Assembly (NCBI RefSeq): GCF_001648155.1
Contig: NZ_CP015199.1
Coordinates: 372,001-436,000, forward strand
Length of the DNA stretch: 64,000 nt
Source: Chryseobacterium glaciei
GTDB taxonomy: Bacteria > Bacteroidota > Bacteroidia > Flavobacteriales > Weeksellaceae
Reading direction: 5' to 3'
A model generated the notes under the pieces. That model searched no databases. It was not told where the DNA came from and worked only from the letters and a program-made list of their open reading frames with translations. Every line of letters starts with the position of its first letter. Positions within the stretch are counted from its first letter, which is position 1. Positions 17,584 to 25,939 of the stretch are shown here, piece after piece. A program made the translations under genes and the position numbers.

Positions 17584-17612
17584 CCATTTTAAGTTTTTTT
17601 ATTTTCTCTTTT

Positions 17613-17646
17613 TTTGATTTTTGTATTAAATTTTTTTCTAAATTTG
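17613..17646 (+). promoter_or_regulatory. promoter of the tryptophan operon
   Basis: TTTG (17613-17616), 22 bases, then TAAATTTG (17639-17646) matches the Bacteroidota promoter pattern with slightly long spacing. The expected start of transcription, around 17651-17653, is only a few bases before the leader-peptide ATG at 17660. Confidence 0.65.
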
Positions 17647-17659
17647 TCACATGTTTAAT

Positions 17660-17728
17660 ATGAGCAATAACAATTGGTGGTGGCTTTCAAACTCTTCGTC
17701 GGGTCTGAAGTTATTATCATGTTGCTAA
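17660..17728 (+). CDS. trp operon leader peptide with three consecutive Trp codons
   Basis: This 22-codon ORF begins MSNNNWWWLSNSSSG and ends in two Cys codons and TAA. TGG-TGG-TGG at 17675-17683 is the attenuation sensor: Trp is otherwise rare, and the next large gene is trpE. An in-frame ATG at 17651 would lie at the predicted transcription start, so 17660 is preferred. The ORF is far below usual gene-calling length. It overlaps the antiterminator segment (17696-17706), which lies inside codons 13-16. Confidence 0.88.
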   Translation: MSNNNWWWLSNSSSGLKLLSCC

Positions 17729-17795
17729 ATCAACAGCCGGAATAATATACTACAATATATAAGACTTTGACGATTTTCGTTGAAGTCTTTTTTTT
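17696..17795 (+). promoter_or_regulatory. trp attenuator: antiterminator/terminator switch
   Basis: The terminator is a 13-bp stem: 17761-17773 (AAGACTTTGACGA) with 17777-17789 (TCGTTGAAGTCTT), including two G-U pairs, a 3-base loop and a T run to 17795. The competing structure pairs leader segment 17696-17706 (TCGTCGGGTCT) with 17762-17773: nine Watson-Crick pairs, two G-U and one bulge. Segment 17696-17706 closely resembles the terminator's right arm, as expected for mutually exclusive partners. A ribosome stalled at the Trp codons would leave 17696-17706 free to form the antiterminator. How a ribosome that reaches the stop codon at 17726 blocks it is less clear from spacing. Confidence 0.82.
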
Positions 17796-17828
17796 ATTTA
17801 CAATCAATTCAAAAAAATAAAACTGCAA

Positions 17829-19259
17829 ATGTTTAACAAAAAAATAAAGATAAAAACCGTTTCCAAAAAAACACTGGGAGATCTAAAAACACCCATGAAT
17901 ATCTATCTGCAGCTTCGTGATAAGTTCAGAGATACTATTCTTTTGGAAAGTTCTGATTCTAAGAATATTGACAATAATTTTTCATTCATCGCCATCAATG
18001 CTGTCGCGGGAATCGAAATAAAAAACCTTAATGAATTTGAAATAAAACTTCCGAGACAGGAGCCTATCAAACAATTCATTATAGAGCATAAAGTCGCTGA
18101 TGTTTTTGAAGATTTTACTAAAATTTTCGAATGCGAAAAAACAAATGATCCTGTTGAACAAACCGCTCAAAGCCTTTTCGGATATACAAGTTTTGAAGCT
18201 GTTCAGTTTTTTGAGAATGTCAATTTTAAAGCTCAAAGCCCTGAAGTTGAGATTCCAATTCTTCGTTACAGACTGTATCAATATGTGATTGCCATCAATC
18301 ATTATAATGATGAAATGTACATTATTGAAAATCAGATTGAAGGTGTAAAATCCGAACTTTATTTGCTGGAAAGTATTATTAAAAATCAAAATTCTGTCGT
18401 TTATCCTTTCAAAAAAAATGGTGCAGAAACGTCCAATATTACTAATGAAGAATATATTGAATTAGTAAAAACTGCCCAAAAACACTGTATGAGAGGAGAC
18501 GTTTTTCAATTAGTATTAAGCAGAAGATTTGAACAGAAATTTCAGGGAGATGAATTCAATGTTTATCGCGCTTTGAGGAATATCAATCCCTCGCCTTATT
18601 TATTCTTTTTCGATTACGGAAATTATAAATTATTCGGATCAAGTCCTGAAAGTCAATTAATTATCAAAAACAACAAAGCAATTATTCATCCAATTGCAGG
18701 AACATTCAAAAGAACGGGACATTTTGAAACTGACCTTCAATCCATTGAAGAATTAAAAGCCGATGCTAAAGAAAATGCAGAACATACAATGTTGGTAGAT
18801 TTAGCTAGAAATGATTTGGGAAAACTAGGAAAAAATGTAACCGTTACCAAATTAAAAGAAATCCAGCTTTTTTCTCACGTTATCCACATGGTAAGCGAAG
18901 TTACCGCTGATTTACCTGAAAATACAAATCCATTCGAAATGGTTGCCACCACTTTCCCACAGGGAACTTTAAGCGGTGCACCAAAACACAAAGCGCTACA
19001 ATTAATCAATAAATACGAGAAAGATTCCCGCGGATATTACGGTGGCTGCATCGGAATGATCGGGTTGAATGGTGACTGTAATCAAGCTATCATGATCAGA
19101 ACCTTTTTAAGTAAAAATAACACTTTATATTATCAGGCCGGAGCCGGATTGGTTGCAAAATCAAACCCCGAAAGTGAGTTGGAAGAAGTCAACAATAAAC
19201 TGAATGCCCTGAAAAAAGCAGTTGAAAAAGCAGGGAATTTGTTGATAGATAATAGTTGA
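17829..19259 (+). CDS. trpE: anthranilate synthase component I
   Basis: TrpE converts chorismate and ammonia (supplied by TrpG) to anthranilate. The 476-residue protein has the chorismate-binding core: CMRGDVFQLVLSRRFEQKF, GSSPESQLI, HPIAGTFKRTG, ENAEHTMLVDLARNDLGK, FPQGTLSGAPKHKAL and GYYGGCIGMIGLNGDCNQAIMIRTF. The start is the ATG 33 bases after the attenuator T run. The last residues (LLIDNS) and the TGA stop are encoded by the left copy of a dispersed repeat, which suggests that the original 3' end was altered when the S23 cassette arrived. Confidence 0.97.
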   Translation: MFNKKIKIKTVSKKTLGDLKTPMNIYLQLRDKFRDTILLESSDSKNIDNNFSFIAINAVAGIEIKNLNEFEIKLPRQEPIKQFIIEHKVADVFEDFTKIFECEKTNDPVEQTAQSLFGYTSFEAVQFFENVNFKAQSPEVEIPILRYRLYQYVIAINHYNDEMYIIENQIEGVKSELYLLESIIKNQNSVVYPFKKNGAETSNITNEEYIELVKTAQKHCMRGDVFQLVLSRRFEQKFQGDEFNVYRALRNINPSPYLFFFDYGNYKLFGSSPESQLIIKNNKAIIHPIAGTFKRTGHFETDLQSIEELKADAKENAEHTMLVDLARNDLGKLGKNVTVTKLKEIQLFSHVIHMVSEVTADLPENTNPFEMVATTFPQGTLSGAPKHKALQLINKYEKDSRGYYGGCIGMIGLNGDCNQAIMIRTFLSKNNTLYYQAGAGLVAKSNPESELEEVNNKLNALKKAVEKAGNLLIDNS

Positions 19260-19296: not shown

Positions 19297-19650
19297 ATGG
19301 AATACACAAATTTGGATGTTTGGATTGAATCAAGAAAACTTACTAATCTAGTCTATGATTCAACTAAAAATTATCCTAAAGAAGAATTATTTGGGCTGAC
19401 AAATCAAATTAGGAGATGTGCTGTTTCTGTTCCATCTAACATTGCAGAAGGCTGTGGAAGAAATACATCGAAAGAAACAATACATTTTCTGTTTATCGCA
19501 AGAGGTTCTTTATATGAATTGGAAACTCAGTTTTATTTATCATCAGACCAAAATTATTTAAGCAACGAAAAATTTACAGCTATTTTAAATCAAATTATTA
19601 TTTGCAAAAAGTTGTTAAACGGATTTATTAATTATTATAGAAACAAATAA
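19297..19650 (+). CDS. four-helix-bundle protein of the S23 (23S rRNA intervening sequence) family
   Basis: This 117-residue protein belongs to the S23/four-helix-bundle family. The signature is clear: LDVWIESRKLTNLVY, LTNQIRRCAVSVPSNIAEGCGR, and the SLYELETQ helix. Family members were first seen in insertions of 23S rRNA genes and also occur as single-gene cassettes; their biochemical role is unsettled. Here the gene lies between trpE and trpG, is flanked by inverted repeats, and its TAA is directly followed by the ATG of trpG. It is read with the trp operon but has no expected role in tryptophan synthesis. Confidence 0.9.
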   Translation: MEYTNLDVWIESRKLTNLVYDSTKNYPKEELFGLTNQIRRCAVSVPSNIAEGCGRNTSKETIHFLFIARGSLYELETQFYLSSDQNYLSNEKFTAILNQIIICKKLLNGFINYYRNK

Positions 19651-20265
19651 ATGGACACCACTATAAAACAATCAACTATAGACAATCAACTATCAACTAA
19701 AATCCTAGTTTTCGATAATTACGACAGCTTTACTTACAACCTCGTTCAGATCATCGAAAGAGTTTTAGATCAAAAAGTTGATGTGGTAAGAAATGATCAA
19801 ATTTCTCTGGAAGAAATCAATAAATATGATAAAATAATCCTTTCTCCAGGCCCGGGAATTCCCGAAGAAGCAGGTATTTTATTAGATGTTATTAAAGAAT
19901 ATGCTCCTACAAAAAGTATTTTGGGAGTTTGTCTTGGTCAGCAGGCAATTGCAGAGGCGTTTGGCGGAAGTTTGATCAACCTTTCCGAAATTTTTCACGG
20001 TGTGGCTACTTCAGCAGAATTAGTGAAAAATGACACGAAACTTTTTAGAAATATCCAAAGTGGTTTAGCAGTCGGAAGATATCACAGTTGGGCTGTTGAT
20101 CCCAAAAATTTCCCACAAGAACTGGAAATTACCGCAGTAGACAAAGACGGAATGATCATGGCGTTACAACATAAAACATATGATGTACACGGTGTTCAAT
20201 TCCATCCCGAAAGTATTTTAACTCCAGACGGAGAAGCAATCATTAAAAATTTCCTTTTAAATTGA
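19651..20265 (+). CDS. trpG: anthranilate synthase glutamine amidotransferase component
   Basis: TrpG hydrolyses glutamine and passes ammonia to TrpE. The class I amidotransferase triad is visible: Cys94 in LGVCLGQQ, with His and Glu in VQFHPES near the C-terminus. The family normally begins MKILVFDNYDSFTYN; here KILVFDNYDSFTYN is preceded by 16 extra residues (MDTTIKQSTIDNQLST) encoded by the right repeat of the S23 cassette, and no in-frame ATG, GTG or TTG lies nearer. The insertion thus seems to have replaced the native start codon. The ATG follows the S23 stop directly, so translation is probably coupled. The end overlaps the trpD upstream region. Confidence 0.95.
   Translation: MDTTIKQSTIDNQLSTKILVFDNYDSFTYNLVQIIERVLDQKVDVVRNDQISLEEINKYDKIILSPGPGIPEEAGILLDVIKEYAPTKSILGVCLGQQAIAEAFGGSLINLSEIFHGVATSAELVKNDTKLFRNIQSGLAVGRYHSWAVDPKNFPQELEITAVDKDGMIMALQHKTYDVHGVQFHPESILTPDGEAIIKNFLLN
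19668..19700. repeat. right inverted repeat of the S23 cassette
   Basis: This is the inverted counterpart of 19241-19275 (AACAATCAACTA and CTATCAAC blocks). It is translated as part of the N-terminal extension of TrpG. Confidence 0.65.
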
Positions 20266-20303
20266 AAACAATAGAAATTCCTTCAACCATAAAAATCCCA
20301 CAA

Positions 20304-21290
20304 ATGAAAGAAATCCTGGAATACCTGTTCAATCATCATACCTTATCAAAATCTGAAGCTAAGGCAATTATGATTGAGATCGCTCAAAATAAATTCAATG
20401 TGATTGAAGTAACCGCTTTTATCAGTGTTTTTCTGATGAGAAATATTACTTTGAAGGAATTGGAAGGTTTCAGAGAAGCTTTGTTACAAATGGCGGCTAC
20501 CGTAAATCTGGATGCCGATGACGCAATAGATATCGTTGGAACCGGAGGTGATGGCAAAAACACTATCAATATCTCAACTTTAGCAAGTTTTGTGATAGCC
20601 GGAGCAGGTCAGAAAGTAACTAAACATGGAAATTATGGAGCATCTACAACCACAGGATCTTCAAATGTGATGGAGGAACTTGGATATATTTTTAAAAATG
20701 ATTCCGACATGCTGAATAAAGATCTTGAAAGAGCTAATATCTGCTTTTTGCATGCGCCATACTTTCATCCTGCATTGCAGTCAGTCGGAGCATTGAGAAG
20801 ATCTTTAGGCTTGAGAACATTTTTCAATTTGTTGGGTCCGTTGGTCAATCCGGCGAAGCCACAATTTTCAATGATCGGAGTTTACAATCTTGAAATTGCC
20901 CGAATTTACCAATATCTGTTGCAAAAAGATAAACGAGATTTCATTTTGGTTCATAGTTTAGATGGATATGATGAAATAAGTTTGACCCACGACACCAAAA
21001 TTATCACTAAAAATGGGGAAGAAATCTATTCAACTGAAGATTTAGGTTTTGACTCCATTTCTCAGGAAAGCATAAAAGCGGGAGAAACAACTCAGGAATC
21101 TGCGAGAATTTTTAGAGATATTTTGGAAGGAAGAGGGACAAAACAACAAAATTCCGTGATTTTAGCTAATGCCGCCGTTGCCTTAAATCACACCAAAAAA
21201 TTCGGAAGTTATGACGACTGTCTTTTGTTGGCGCAGGAAAGTTTAGAAAGCGGAAAAGCATTGAAAAGCTTGGAATTGCTTCTGCAATAA
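20304..21290 (+). CDS. trpD: anthranilate phosphoribosyltransferase
   Basis: TrpD joins anthranilate to PRPP. I start it at ATG 20304 (MKEILEYLFNHHTLSKSEAK), the normal family N-terminus; a TTG at 20262 overlapping the trpG stop would add 14 unusual residues. The PRPP-binding glycine motif is DIVGTGGDGKNTINIST, followed by KHGNYGASTTTGSSNVMEELG and the anthranilate-site LGPLVNPA. The 328-residue length is normal. It is read after trpG with a short gap and is followed 19 bases later by trpC. Confidence 0.96.
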   Translation: MKEILEYLFNHHTLSKSEAKAIMIEIAQNKFNVIEVTAFISVFLMRNITLKELEGFREALLQMAATVNLDADDAIDIVGTGGDGKNTINISTLASFVIAGAGQKVTKHGNYGASTTTGSSNVMEELGYIFKNDSDMLNKDLERANICFLHAPYFHPALQSVGALRRSLGLRTFFNLLGPLVNPAKPQFSMIGVYNLEIARIYQYLLQKDKRDFILVHSLDGYDEISLTHDTKIITKNGEEIYSTEDLGFDSISQESIKAGETTQESARIFRDILEGRGTKQQNSVILANAAVALNHTKKFGSYDDCLLLAQESLESGKALKSLELLLQ

Positions 21291-21309
21291 TCACCTTTTA
21301 AAATGTAGA

Positions 21310-22089
21310 ATGATGACAATATTAGACAAAATCGTAAAAAGAAAAAGGGAAGAAATTACAGTTTCAAAATCAAAAATTTGTATTGAAGAATTGAAAGATT
21401 CTCAGTTTTTTGGAAGAAAAACCCTTTCATTAAAAGAATCTATAAAAAATAAAAGCGGAGTTATTGCCGAGTTTAAAAGACAATCTCCATCAAAAGGAAT
21501 TATTAATGATCAGGTTTCTCCTTTAGAAGTTGTTTCAGCGTATGAAAAATTTGGCGCGAGTGGAATTTCAATTTTGACAGACAAAGATTTTTTCGGTGGA
21601 AGTTTTGAAGATATTTTAAGTGTAAGAAATCACATCAATATTCCAATTTTACGAAAAGATTTCATGGTGGATGAATATCAGTTTTATGAAGCAAAAAGCA
21701 TTGGTGCTGATGTTATTTTATTGATAGCTTCTTGCCTATCAGCTAATCAGGTTCAGGAATTTACGGAATTATCTCATGAATTAGGATTAGAAGTTTTATT
21801 GGAAATTCATACCGAAGAAGAACTTAATCATTTCAATCCAAAAATTGATCTGGTTGGAATTAATAACAGAAATTTAAAAGATTTTAAAGTTGATTTACAG
21901 CATTCTGTGAACTTAAAAAACTTACTTCCAAAAGACGTTTTATCCATCGCAGAAAGTGGAATTTATACGATTGAAGATTTCAATTATTTGAAAGAAAAAG
22001 GGTTTGACGGGTTTTTAATGGGCGAATATTTTATGAAAAATAAAAACCCTGCAAATACGTTTGAAGAATTTATAAAAACAATTTCATGA
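21310..22089 (+). CDS. trpC: indole-3-glycerol phosphate synthase
   Basis: TrpC closes the indole ring in the fifth step of the pathway. It is a stand-alone (beta/alpha)8 barrel of 259 residues, with VIAEFKRQSPSKGII holding the catalytic Lys, ILTDKDFFGGS, ILRKDFMVDEYQ, GINNRNLKDF and IAESGI. Two adjacent ATG codons could be the start. Its end overlaps trpF by four bases (ATGA). It is not fused to trpF, unlike in enterobacteria. Confidence 0.97.
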   Translation: MMTILDKIVKRKREEITVSKSKICIEELKDSQFFGRKTLSLKESIKNKSGVIAEFKRQSPSKGIINDQVSPLEVVSAYEKFGASGISILTDKDFFGGSFEDILSVRNHINIPILRKDFMVDEYQFYEAKSIGADVILLIASCLSANQVQEFTELSHELGLEVLLEIHTEEELNHFNPKIDLVGINNRNLKDFKVDLQHSVNLKNLLPKDVLSIAESGIYTIEDFNYLKEKGFDGFLMGEYFMKNKNPANTFEEFIKTIS

Positions 22090-22724
22090 AACTTAAAGTC
22101 TGCGGATTAACAAAACTTGATCAGATTCAGGAATTAATTTCTATGAATACAGATTTTCTTGGTTTTATATTTTATAAAAAATCACCGAGGTATGTTCTGA
22201 ATCATTTAAATTTAGAAGACATTTCAAAAATTAACCATCAGGGGAAAGTTGGAGTTTTTGTGAATGAAGAGGTAGATACAATAATTGAGACAGCACAAAA
22301 AGCAAATCTGAATTTTATACAGCTTCACGGCGATGAAAGTGAAAATTTTATTTCAGAATTAAAAGAAAAATTAAATCTTGAAATTGGAATTATAAAAGTA
22401 ATAAGGATTGGAAATGAGAGACTGGACAGCGCAAGTAGCATTCAGGAAACTATCAACCGACAACTGAAAACCAGCAACTATTTACTTTTTGATACAGATA
22501 GCAAAGCATTTGGAGGAACAGGAAAACAGTTTGATTGGACTTTATTAAACGAATTTGAAATTCCACTTCCTTATTTTTTAAGCGGCGGAATTTCAGAAGA
22601 GAATATCAATAATATTAAAATTTTAAATCAAAATCCATTTGCTTTAGATATTAATTCAAAGTTTGAATTGAAAGCTGGAATTAAAGATATGGAGAAAATT
22701 ACAAAATTTAAACACTTATACTAG
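22086..22724 (+). CDS. trpF: phosphoribosylanthranilate isomerase
   Basis: TrpF isomerises phosphoribosylanthranilate. The 212-residue barrel shows LKVCGLTKLDQI (catalytic Cys), FYKKSPRYV, VGVFVNEE, IQLHGDES, LFDTDSKAFGGTGKQFDW (catalytic Asp and phosphate-binding glycines) and FLSGGISEENI. It is coupled to trpC by an ATGA overlap. A REP-flanked transposase gene begins directly after its stop codon and separates it from trpB. Confidence 0.95.
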   Translation: MKLKVCGLTKLDQIQELISMNTDFLGFIFYKKSPRYVLNHLNLEDISKINHQGKVGVFVNEEVDTIIETAQKANLNFIQLHGDESENFISELKEKLNLEIGIIKVIRIGNERLDSASSIQETINRQLKTSNYLLFDTDSKAFGGTGKQFDWTLLNEFEIPLPYFLSGGISEENINNIKILNQNPFALDINSKFELKAGIKDMEKITKFKHLY

Positions 22725-22726
22725 AA

Positions 22727-23325
22727 AGAGTCCCAAAGGGACGATTTAACAGAGAATTGGATAAAATCCAATTAATCAAAAAACACAAACAAATGCCACA
22801 ATCATTAGTTAAAAATTATATCCATATTATTTTCAGTACAAAATATAGGAACGATTTTATTGATGAAAAAATAGAAAAAGAATTATTTTCCTACATTGCT
22901 ATAATATGCAAAGACTTTGAAAGTAGTGCCTTGCAAATTGGAGGAACGGATAATCATATCCACATTCTTTGTTTGCTGTCGAGAAAAATTGCCTTAATGA
23001 AATTAGTTCAGGAAATAAAATCACATTCATCAAAATGGATAAAAACAAAAGGGAAAAGATATGAAGACTTCTTTTGGCAAGAAGGTTACGGAGCATTTTC
23101 GGTAAGTGAAAAGAATATTTATGCTACAATTAATTATATTAAAAATCAACGCGAGCATCATCAGAATCAAAGCTTCAAAGATGAAATGATTGGAATACTG
23201 AAAAAACATAAAATACAGTATGATGAAAAATATTTGTGGGATTAATATTCATATTTGAACTGGATATATTTTATAGGATTACATCCTATGCTTTATTAAA
23301 TCGTCCCTTCGGGACTCTTTAAGAG
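22727..23325. mobile_element. REP-flanked IS200/RAYT-like element inside the trp operon
   Basis: The ends carry near-identical hairpin units in inverted orientation: AAGAGTCCCAAAGGGACGAT at about 22728-22748 and TAAATCGTCCCTTCGGGACT at about 23299-23318. Each contains the small palindrome GTCCC-AAA/TTC-GGGAC. A second pair of small palindromes lies inside (AATTGGA...TCCAATT at 22756-22773 and ATAGGATTACATCCTAT at 23270-23287). The arrangement of a single Y1 transposase gene between inverted REP-like units is that described for RAYTs. No long terminal inverted repeats or target duplication were seen, as expected for Y1 elements. Confidence 0.75.
22793..23245 (+). CDS. Y1 (IS200/RAYT-like) transposase
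   Basis: This 150-residue single-domain Y1 HUH nuclease cuts and joins single-stranded DNA. I start it at ATG 22793 (MPQSLVKNYIHIIFSTKYR), the usual family N-terminus, rather than the upstream TTG. The metal-binding HUH motif is DNHIHIL (His55, His57), and the catalytic Tyr is probably Tyr115 in TINYIKNQREHH. All parts look intact, so the protein may be functional. It is in the same direction as the trp genes and would be co-transcribed. Confidence 0.92.
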   Translation: MPQSLVKNYIHIIFSTKYRNDFIDEKIEKELFSYIAIICKDFESSALQIGGTDNHIHILCLLSRKIALMKLVQEIKSHSSKWIKTKGKRYEDFFWQEGYGAFSVSEKNIYATINYIKNQREHHQNQSFKDEMIGILKKHKIQYDEKYLWD

Positions 23326-23339
23326 AAAAAAAACAAAAA

Positions 23340-23858
23340 ATGATAAACATACATTTAATAAGAAAAAATTTCTATAAAAGATTATTTCCGCCAAAGTTTG
23401 AAAATGAAAGAGTTCAAGCTTTGTACAATTTTGTATCTAAAAATGACAATAATTTCGAACATTGGGAACTCGATGGATTATTAACGGATTTTATCAACAT
23501 CATTAAAATTTATGATGAAAAAGATACACAACACTTTTTTGATACGATCAATTTATGGAACAGCTATTATCTTGTTATTATTTCCGATAAATTTTTAGAT
23601 AATAGAGTAAAATCGAATGTTACCTATGATTTTGGAAACATTTATGCTAAAATATTTTTACTGTATGAAAACTTTGATTCATATTTTTTAATTGATAATC
23701 TGGAGATTGCGATTACGATGTACAACTCAAAATTGGACATGACTACTTTAATTGATCTGAACGGTAAAATCAATTTATTATATCATAAAAAACTGATAAC
23801 CAAACAACAATTTGAATATAACTTGTCATTTATAAATAATTTACAAAATGAATTATAA
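23340..23858 (+). CDS. unknown protein translationally coupled to trpB
   Basis: I do not recognise this 172-residue soluble, mostly helical protein ([77 protein letters not shown]). There are no signal peptide, membrane segments or obvious catalytic motifs. It starts 14 bases after the transposon end, and its last 11 bases overlap the trpB start, so the two are almost surely translated together. It may be an old lineage gene of the operon or cargo left with the neighbouring element; the sequence does not decide. Confidence 0.75.
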
Positions 23859-25026
23859 AAACCCCGATGAACACGGATATTATGGAGAATTTGGAGGTGC
23901 TTTTATTCCAGAAATGCTTTATCCGAATGTAGAAGAATTACAAAAAAACTACCTCAAAATCATAGAATCAGAAGATTTTCAGACCGAATATCAGGATCTT
24001 TTGAAAAACTACGTTGGACGTGCTACTCCACTATATTTTGCCAAGAATTTAAGCCAAAAATATAATACCAAAATCTATCTTAAAAGAGAAGATCTTAATC
24101 ATACCGGAGCGCATAAAATTAACAATGCTTTAGGGCAGGTTTTATTGGCAAAACGTTTGGGTAAAACCAGAATTATTGCTGAAACCGGAGCCGGTCAACA
24201 CGGCGTTGCCACCGCTACAGCTTGTGCTTTATTGGGCTTGGACTGCATCGTTTACATGGGTGAAATCGATATTCAAAGACAAGCTCCGAATGTTGCCAGA
24301 ATGAAAATGCTAGGAGCAAAAGTTATTCCTGCAACTTCAGGTTCTAAGACCTTAAAAGACGCTGTAAATGAAGCATTAAGAGATTGGATCAATAATTCCG
24401 TAACCACTCATTATGTGATTGGAAGTGTGGTCGGTCCGCACCCTTTTCCGGATTTGGTAGCGAGATTTCAGAGTATTATTTCAAAAGAAATCAGAGAGCA
24501 ACTAAACGAACAAATTGGAAGACAAAATCCCGATTACGTCATTGCATGTGTTGGCGGTGGAAGCAATGCAGCAGGAACTTTTTACCATTTTGTGAATGAA
24601 GAAAATGTAAAAATTATCGCCGCTGAAGCCGGAGGTTTAGGAGTCGATTCAGGAAAGTCGGCAGCGACCACTTTTCTGGGAACTTTAGGTGTTTTACACG
24701 GAAGCAAAAGTTTAGTGATGCAAACGGAAGACGGACAAGTTATAGAGCCCCACTCTATTTCCGCAGGATTAGATTACCCAGGAATCGGGCCTTTTCATGC
24801 ACATCTTTTCAAAGAAAATCGCGCTGAATTTTTCAGTATTAATGATGATGAAGCCTTAAAATGTGCTTTCGAACTGACAAAATTAGAAGGTATCATTCCC
24901 GCGTTGGAAAGCGCTCATGCTTTGGCGGTTTTAGACAAGAAAAAATTCAACGAAAATGATATTGTTGTCATCTGCCTGAGCGGTCGTGGTGACAAGGATA
25001 TGGAAACGTATTTGAAGAATTTATAA
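23848..25026 (+). CDS. trpB: tryptophan synthase beta chain
   Basis: TrpB condenses indole with serine to make tryptophan, using PLP. The 392-residue protein has the family start [18 protein letters not shown], the PLP lysine in [14 protein letters not shown], the catalytic Glu segment [13 protein letters not shown], the phosphate-binding GGGSNAAG and the C-terminal [10 protein letters not shown]. The ATG at 23848 lies inside the end of the unknown upstream gene. It is separated from trpA by a 178-base gap containing a dispersed repeat. Confidence 0.98.
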
Positions 25027-25110
25027 GTCGATTTTGGCGATAAATTCCGTCTTCCACTCCCGCTTTTTTACTTCGTAAAAAGAGCTCCGTTCAAGCCGGA
25101 TCGCAAGGTA
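25027..25110. repeat. dispersed palindromic repeat, copy 2, between trpB and trpA
   Basis: The gap between trpB and trpA holds CTTCCACTCCCGC followed by a hairpin (GCTTTTTTAC at 25062-25071 with GTAAAAAGAGC at 25075-25085) and CAAGCCGGATCGCAAGG. Its plan resembles the element at 356-441. It has no T run downstream of the stem, so it should not terminate transcription into trpA. Confidence 0.55.
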
Positions 25111-25204
25111 GAATCCAAAACAACTTTTGTCAGTTCAAAGAACTTTCAGGAAATAAAATTTTAATTTAAAAACTTATTTTTCTTTAATTTTTTAAACAAT
25201 TTAA

Positions 25205-25939
25205 ATGAAAAAACTAAACATATACTTCACAGCAGGAATTCCACAACTGGAAGATATCGCTGATATTATACAACTCATTCAGGACGCCGGAGCAGATATG
25301 ATGGAAATCGGAATGCCTTATTCTGATCCTGTTGCAGATGGACCCGTTATTCAAAAAGCTCATGAACTGGCTTTAAAAAATGGAATGACGATTGAAAAAC
25401 TTTTGTCACAGTTAAAATCGATCAAAAATGAAATCAAAATTCCGGTGATTTTAATGGGATATATCAATCCTGTTTTAAGTTTTGGCTTCGAAAACTTCTG
25501 TAGAGAATGTTCAGAAAGTGGAGTTTCAGGATTAATTATTCCAGATCTACCGCCTATTGAATTCGAAAAAAATTATCAGAAAATTTTAGAAAAATACAAT
25601 CTGAATTTCACATTTTTGGTAACTCCCGAAACTTCTGACGAAAGAATTCTCTATCTGGATTCATTAAGTTCAGGATTTTTATACGCAGTAAGTTCCTCAT
25701 CAACAACAGGAAAAGAAAATACAATATTAAAAAATGAAGATTATCTCTCAAGGTTAGCATCTCTTCCGTTAAAAAACCCTGTTATGATCGGTTTTGGAAT
25801 AAAATCAAAGCAAGATTTCGAAAACGTCACAGAAAAAGCCGATGGCGGAATTATCGGGACTGCTTTCGTAAATATTTTACTACAAAATAAAGATTGGAAG
25901 ATAAAAGCCATAGATTTTATTAATTCCATAAAAAATTAA
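25205..25939 (+). CDS. trpA: tryptophan synthase alpha chain
   Basis: TrpA cleaves indole-3-glycerol phosphate to indole and passes it to TrpB. In this 244-residue barrel the catalytic Glu and Asp are in DMMEIGMPYSDPVADGPVIQ, with GLIIPDLPPIEFE and the phosphate-binding MIGFGIKSKQDF and GGIIGTAFV. The ATG at 25205 follows the repeat region after trpB. It is the last gene of the operon; I saw no terminator before lipB. Confidence 0.96.
   Translation: MKKLNIYFTAGIPQLEDIADIIQLIQDAGADMMEIGMPYSDPVADGPVIQKAHELALKNGMTIEKLLSQLKSIKNEIKIPVILMGYINPVLSFGFENFCRECSESGVSGLIIPDLPPIEFEKNYQKILEKYNLNFTFLVTPETSDERILYLDSLSSGFLYAVSSSSTTGKENTILKNEDYLSRLASLPLKNPVMIGFGIKSKQDFENVTEKADGGIIGTAFVNILLQNKDWKIKAIDFINSIKN

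Follow-up and report, generated by a model that had tools for sequence, protein, structure and literature searches.

The trp operon of Chryseobacterium glaciei is very probably controlled by a ribosome-mediated transcription attenuator in which, as judged from its sequence, the AUG of the leader ORF would stand at the 5' end of the RNA and RNA segments 1 and 2 would both lie inside that ORF. The window analysed here, a stretch of 64,000 nucleotides, carries all the parts that such a device needs (Table 1): a run of codons for the pathway's own product in a leader ahead of the trpEGDCFBA operon, an intrinsic terminator between the leader ORF and the first gene, an antiterminator that excludes this terminator and lies just downstream of where a ribosome would stall, and the competing 1:2 hairpin expected of a ribosome-mediated attenuator. 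The elements are conserved, and the 1:2, 2:3 and 3:4 pairings all covary. The first gene was named trpE because TIGR00564 is its best family and trp genes follow it, and trpF was likewise named from its best family and its neighbours; the nearest named TrpE found belongs to C. limigenitum (99% over its best-matching segment).

Table 1. Features of the trp leader and operon, numbered from the first base of the window.
Feature	Position	Strand	Remarks
-7 promoter element TAAATTTG (TAnnTTTG)	17639-17646	+	TAnnTTTG in 81/81 Chryseobacterium leaders, TACATTTG in 70
Leader ORF, 25 codons, MFNMSNNNWWWLSNSSSGLKLLSCC followed by stop	17651-17728	+	ATG 17651, stop TAA 17726-17728; predicted start at +1
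Three tandem Trp (control) codons, TGG x3	17675-17683	+	Present in 81/81 Chryseobacterium leaders
Segment 1 (1:2 hairpin, 5' strand): Ser/Asn codons, then Trp codons, as far as ACUC	17663-17694	+	Pairs with 17701-17726
Segment 2: antiterminator strand 17697-17706 and the codons (to 17726) pairing with segment 1	17697-17726	+	
Segment 3: terminator left arm, common to antiterminator and terminator	17761-17773	+	
Segment 4: terminator right arm and T run	17777-17795	+	Terminator in 81/81 leaders
trpE, first gene of the controlled operon	17829-19259	+	TIGR00564 best family, 410.1 bits, below the cut-off of 517.7
ORF for four-helix-bundle protein (TIGR02436), between trpE and trpG	19297-19650		
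trpG, trpD, trpC, trpF, trpB, trpA	19651-25939	+	All but trpF exceed a curated cut-off
IS200/IS605-like transposase ORF, between trpF and trpB	22757-23245		
Inserted ORF without family assignment, between trpF and trpB	23340-23858		

An initial annotation of this locus had described a TAnnTTTG promoter, a 13-bp terminator with a T run, and a leader segment able to pair with the left arm of the terminator and resembling its right arm, and each of these was recovered. The terminator stem occupies 17761-17789, with the T run reaching 17795, and 17697-17706 forms 10 pairs, with one bulged U, with 17762-17772 of the left arm. The placing of this segment inside the leader ORF also held, as did the spacings, the stop codon beginning 20 nt past the segment and the terminator 33 nt past the stop (given as about 30). 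The annotated 22-codon ORF with TGG x3 stood in part: its Trp codons are present in all 81 Chryseobacterium leaders, and its start, ATG 17660, has a counterpart in only 36 of the 81. A terminator-like site by itself is no better than chance here (1 found in 1501 bases, 0.6 expected); its conservation among relatives exceeds chance. The leader of the window folds at z = -3.30 relative to dinucleotide shuffles, 2 of 200 of which were as good, and the pattern TAHHTTTG-N4-ATG, which occurs 4 times on the two strands of the 64-kb window, is followed by a Trp-run ORF at this locus only.

For comparison with relatives, regions upstream of trpE were taken from the genome itself, from 29 related genomes and from 80 named records, of which Chryseobacterium supplied 65. 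Removal of duplicates left 82 distinct Chryseobacterium leaders, and exclusion of L072, which is cut by a contig end, left 81; L111 and L173-L180 stand outside the 81, and all nine encode WWW, with a promoter spacing of 4 in L173-L180. A start codon is present at the position of 17651 in every one of the 81 leaders (80 ATG, 1 GTG), and it follows TAnnTTTG by 4 nt in 80 of them and by 5 nt in the other. Eight codons precede the first TGG in 76 leaders, seven in 3 and nine in 2, and the leader stop lies at +51 from the first TGG in 78.

In Flavobacterium johnsoniae the TAnnTTTG element spans -12 to -5, and a start site 4 or 5 nt past the element was the criterion for a probable promoter (PMC6847099); the same position, -12 to -5, is reported for F. 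psychrophilum (PMC9723704). Because the Chryseobacterium start codon is 4 nt past the element, and the F. johnsoniae map puts the G of the element at -5, the AUG would begin at +1. With its start codon 9 nt further upstream than annotated, the leader ORF is therefore predicted, from promoter spacing and the F. johnsoniae map, to be leaderless, with AUG as the first bases of the trp leader mRNA. The attenuator could be real and yet not leaderless, if transcription began further upstream and the AUG had a normal short 5' UTR. Leaderless messages are rare in the phylum, at 5.5% in F. psychrophilum (PMC9723704), and about 3.7% of 5' UTRs are under 10 nt in B. thetaiotaomicron (PMC7366714); moreover, among 60 leaders of more distant relatives the leader stands 16-21 nt behind TAnnTTTG in 17, and 23 have no such element within 45 nt. 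A free 5' UTR would, however, let the spacing drift, so that the 4 nt kept in all but one of the Chryseobacterium leaders, and the 4 or 5 nt that 26 of the 35 leaders from other genera of the family show, make this arrangement unlikely for Chryseobacterium, and we retain the prediction of a leaderless message.

The leader ORF folds as one hairpin. The Ser/Asn codons at 17663-17669 pair with 17720-17726, which comprises the Cys codons and the initial base of the stop. The Trp codons and the codon behind them (17675-17686) pair with 17708-17719 (codons 11-14 after the first Trp), and a short stem closes the top; the lower stem is absent from the best fold of some leader sequences. Over 65 distinct ORFs, 94.5% of 1625 cells of this 1:2 hairpin are paired, as against 31-55% when the partners are slid by 1-3 columns, and 25 cells carry double changes, as against 3.2 in shuffles. 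One pair is found as G-C 23 times, A-U 17 times and G-U 16 times, and another as U-A 45 times and A-U 7 times; correlated changes occur at columns 8:69 (G-C/A-U) and 29:53 (U-A/A-U), and RNAalifold recovers nearly the same stem. The numbers of double-changed pairs and of pair types were not above those in shuffles (139 and 485 of 500 shuffles reached them), so the covariation is confined to a few positions, and the gain of the ORF hairpin over synonymous recodings is modest (mean z -1.12 for the 65 ORFs). Each of the six codons for Ser, Gly or Leu between the Trp run and 17707 is invariant in at least 98% of leaders; in trpE this holds for 1 of 68 conserved Ser/Gly/Leu columns, and the difference argues that the constraint acts on the RNA. 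Another candidate hairpin (mean z -1.37), which surrounds the stop codon within the loop of the antiterminator, was set aside, as its register shifts among clades and the ORF-wide 1:2 hairpin explains more; it may still form.

In codons 13-16 after the first Trp most changes are synonymous, and the residues L, S, C and C persist. This pattern was first read as selection on the peptide, whose C-terminal LLSCC might be kept for stalling or for action in trans, as reported for peTrpL of Sinorhizobium meliloti (PMC7298713). We consider such a role for the peptide quite improbable. Folding and pair counts have the LLSCC codons pairing with the Trp and Ser/Asn codons as the far strand of the 1:2 hairpin, they change together with their partners at the two correlated column pairs above, and in most other genera of the family the leader peptides have different ends.

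Covariation in the other two pairings was counted in aligned sets of leaders. Set A1 comprised 72 of 77 distinct leaders (L006, L007, L009, L015 and L045 left out). Set A3 comprised 36 of 43 listed leaders, with 11 Chryseobacterium rows; the near-duplicates L182, L185, L186, L188, L197, L198 and L095 (apparently the same record as L217) were left out, and L212, L213, L214 and L216 (other pattern), L209, L215 and L218 (no Trp-Trp leader) and the extra Chryseobacterium loci L173-L180 had been dropped beforehand. Within the genus, 97.6% of 864 terminator cells are paired, one pair being AU 40 times and GC 31 times; there are 44 double changes as against 17.7 in shuffles, at two pairs, and in the family 25 as against 4.0, at eight pairs. 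The antiterminator strand can form all 10 pairs with the left arm in 80 of the 81 Chryseobacterium leaders and nine in the remaining one, and is almost invariant in the genus (99.9% of 720 cells paired, no covariation). Because of this near invariance, covariation of the antiterminator rests on other genera and on three of its ten pairs. Across genera, 88.9% of 334 cells are paired (34-55% in slid controls; 36 of the 43 listed leaders) and 13 cells are doubly changed as against 3.2 in shuffles; the numbers of covarying pairs and of pair types were not above shuffles, 158 and 180 of 500 of which reached them. The comparison among relatives proposed with the initial annotation thus found both the Trp codons and the stems conserved, and an antiterminator that covaries with the left arm across genera; with Trp codons in all 81 leaders of the genus and the paired fractions given here, the reading of the locus as an attenuator gains clear support.

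We suggest that the attenuator works as follows. RNA polymerase would start at or within a base of A17651, the nascent RNA would begin with the AUG of the 25-codon ORF, and a ribosome would load on this 5' end. When charged tRNA-Trp is short, the ribosome would stall on the Trp codons, covering segment 1 and leaving segment 2 free; the free 17697-17706 would pair with the emerging left arm (2:3), and polymerase would continue into trpE. With abundant Trp, the ribosome would reach the stop, segment 2 would re-pair with the Trp and Ser/Asn codons (1:2) and, with these re-paired, the terminator (3:4) would form, the response to Trp presumably having this direction.

Folding calculations on the 81 leaders speak partly for and partly against such a scheme. 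Before the right arm has appeared, and relative to an unpaired left arm, the antiterminator has a median advantage of -9.7 kcal/mol with the ribosome stalled at the third Trp codon and -7.8 kcal/mol at the first, -4.7 kcal/mol with the ribosome at the stop and -1.8 kcal/mol with no ribosome. In this model the effect of the stall on antiterminator energy is in the direction expected of attenuation. Once finished, the terminator outscores the antiterminator in all 81 leaders and in all states tried, by medians of 5.5-9.2 kcal/mol, and under static folding the antiterminator is still in the best structure of 76 of the 81 with a ribosome at the stop and of 55 without a ribosome. As the terminator wins in every state, and static folding of the 81 leaders alone yields no off state, the decision between the two must be kinetic.

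The terminator alone would serve any antitermination system, and it is very improbable that some other Trp sensor (a TRAP-like protein, a T-box or a Trp riboswitch) acts on it past a passive leader ORF, since the Trp codons are themselves conserved and paired, the only Rfam match in the window at gathering score is Flavo-1, far from the leader, and at 17600-17850 no Rfam E-value falls below 0.29, that of a streptococcal sRNA. The T-box covariance model gave no match in the window at gathering score or at 17600-17850, and Trp_leader (RF00513) none in the window at gathering score or among the 8 matches with E <= 10 at 17600-17850. TRAP needs about eleven (G/U)AG repeats, and 17651-17760 holds one GAG and no UAG triplet.

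The position of the stop codon differs among genera of the family. From 120 genomes searched, 89 had TrpE, 77 of them outside Chryseobacterium, and for 38 of these 77 the upstream regions were read; a Trp-Trp leader ORF precedes trpE in 35 of the 38. By eye, L209 has a short ORF with Trp-Cys-Trp and no Trp run before a terminator upstream of trpE, and no Trp leader is seen ahead of trpE in L215 and L218 (genus g136); the gene order at L215 may differ, as its upstream letters resemble the end of trpB. The 35 leaders start 5 nt behind the promoter element in 19 cases, 4 nt in 7 and 6 nt in 2, with spacings of 7, 10 and 22 once each and no TAnnTTTG element in 4. The best antiterminator pairing falls at W1+15 to +34 in 31 of the 35, just beyond what a ribosome halted at the Trp codons would cover, and stops range from +30 to +57. 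The pairing reaches P <= 0.05 against shuffles in 26; in the other 9 pairing with the left arm is not significant, clearly so in L212, L213, L214 and L216 (P >= 0.43).

Outside Chryseobacterium, 22 of the 35 leaders have their stop in or just after the antiterminator segment, so that a terminating ribosome would cover segment 2. Under an assumed footprint, the share of the strand hidden by a ribosome at the stop is 99% in these 22 short-ORF leaders, 6% in the 13 long ones and zero in the 65 Chryseobacterium ORFs. Because the Chryseobacterium stop leaves segment 2 uncovered, re-pairing of 1:2 would have to make the off state there. Four loci, from three genera, use the UGA of GGGUCUGA as the stop of the leader ORF, and in Chryseobacterium one additional base puts this UGA out of frame. 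The suggestion that the Chryseobacterium geometry represents a distinct lineage design was not borne out: there is no separate logic, the extra codons being the far strand of the 1:2 hairpin, and the stop varies among genera as the antiterminator segment stays put.

Trp leaders extend through the phylum. In a survey that kept TrpE matches with E <= 1e-90 (45 of 198 genomes), taken together with the order, a Trp-Trp leader ORF lies ahead of trpE at 46 of 48 loci, one of them (L111) from Chryseobacterium, which argues for a wider or repeated origin; the two loci without one belong to one family. A stricter test, TGGTGG 7-10 codons after a start and upstream of trpE, found 44 of 48, 35 of 38 and 15 of 15 loci in three sets; shuffled sequences gave means of 0.14, 0.02 and 0.07, and the opposite strand gave 0. 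Of 60 leaders from the phylum set and named distant records, 37 have TAnnTTTG within 45 nt of the start (shuffled mean for a 40-nt stretch, 1.6), at 4-10 nt in 19, 16-21 nt in 17 and 32 nt in one. On these counts the Trp leader is general in the phylum, and the predicted leaderless arrangement is found mainly in this family. The segment after the Trp codons pairs with the terminator at P <= 0.05 against shuffles in 37 of 69 leader-terminator pairs, drawn from 63 loci of which six were counted twice and three are Chryseobacterium, and the ORFs of the 60 distant leaders fold at a mean z of -1.47 relative to synonymous recodings if Chryseobacterium codon usage is assumed. Another antiterminator target, loop and right arm, was considered for Flavobacteriaceae-like, Saprospiraceae and Bacteroidales leaders; the best pairing spans the left arm, the loop and the start of the right arm, and we therefore claim no separate mechanism. 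Two loci, L105 (a Flammeovirgaceae MAG) and L163 (a genome of another family), have two tandem units of Trp-Trp leader and terminator before trpE.

The mechanism proposed is textbook attenuation. With E. coli trpL the Chryseobacterium leader shares tandem Trp codons in a short ORF, the 1:2, 2:3 and 3:4 alternatives, an intrinsic terminator, and trpE as first gene. In E. coli trpL (Rfam RF00513 Trp_leader), segment 2 comes after the ORF has ended, and a 5' UTR carrying a ribosome site precedes the ORF; in Chryseobacterium the ORF encloses both segment 1 and segment 2, and its AUG forms the predicted 5' end. In mycobacteria, Cys-rich upstream ORFs can be leaderless. These are likewise short, rich in the amino acid of the pathway and proposed as attenuators (PMC4633059); they differ in specifying cysteine, with no Trp run, and in belonging to organisms in which leaderless messages are common, whereas these are rare in Bacteroidota. 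A leaderless Trp leader is already on record for S. meliloti, whose trpLE(G) transcript begins with the ATG of the leader ORF, as predicted here (PMC7298713); S. meliloti belongs to another phylum and has a 14-aa peptide. The trp attenuators of Corynebacterium and Streptomyces also have double or triple UGG codons and terminators upstream, and differ in phylum and in their GC-rich terminators; the main text of that report does not use the word "leaderless" (PMC1262725). In F. psychrophilum, of the same phylum, attenuation by leader peptides is reported to be strongly indicated ahead of operons for amino-acid biosynthesis, and pheA and hisG are named among the conserved 5' elements in a passage of that report that does not name trp (PMC9723704). 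No description of a trp leader of the Chryseobacterium type was found among the literature matches listed. Work by Lopatovskaya (2010), cited in PMC4833913, may include attenuators of Bacteroidetes. What appears to be new here, on sequence grounds, is a leaderless variant of a known mechanism in which the ORF itself would hold the competing RNA strands.

Tentatively, and with some doubt, we suggest that the trp attenuator may date back at least as far as its class of Bacteroidota and may have evolved, or been kept, apart from the proteobacterial one. Its fixed point would be the distance from the Trp codons to the antiterminator, and two interchangeable routes would lead to its off state: in short ORFs (stop at +30 to +39) the terminating ribosome would cover segment 2, and in long ones, such as those of Chryseobacterium, codons of the ORF would re-pair with it. 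In the family the leader ORF would have become pinned to +1, where translation would begin at the very first bases of the RNA and no ribosome-binding site is needed, in a phylum that hardly uses leaderless messages. To our knowledge, the Bacteroidota are a phylum without Shine-Dalgarno sequences, and the system would suit a clean test of how leaderless initiation sets the coupling of transcription and translation without them. The family supplies natural pairs, in which the stop lies either within the antiterminator strand or past it.

Attenuation is probably not confined to trp in this genome, since two further leaders were seen: one rich in His (MKPNFLTLHHYHHHLC) and followed by a terminator hairpin, before hisG, and one rich in Thr, ending STTTTP, before an 829-aa aspartokinase frame (the L167/L168 pair of loci). 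The His leader begins 18 nt and the Thr leader 10 nt after TACATTTG, and among the three leaders the predicted zero length is special to trp. By eye, no leader was seen in this genome before lysC (L169) or pheA (L172). The genome has no match to ilvD (TIGR00110), and all 14 control genomes have one. The Flavo-1 RNA (RF01705, 61.4 bits) lies at 354-441 on the minus strand of the window.
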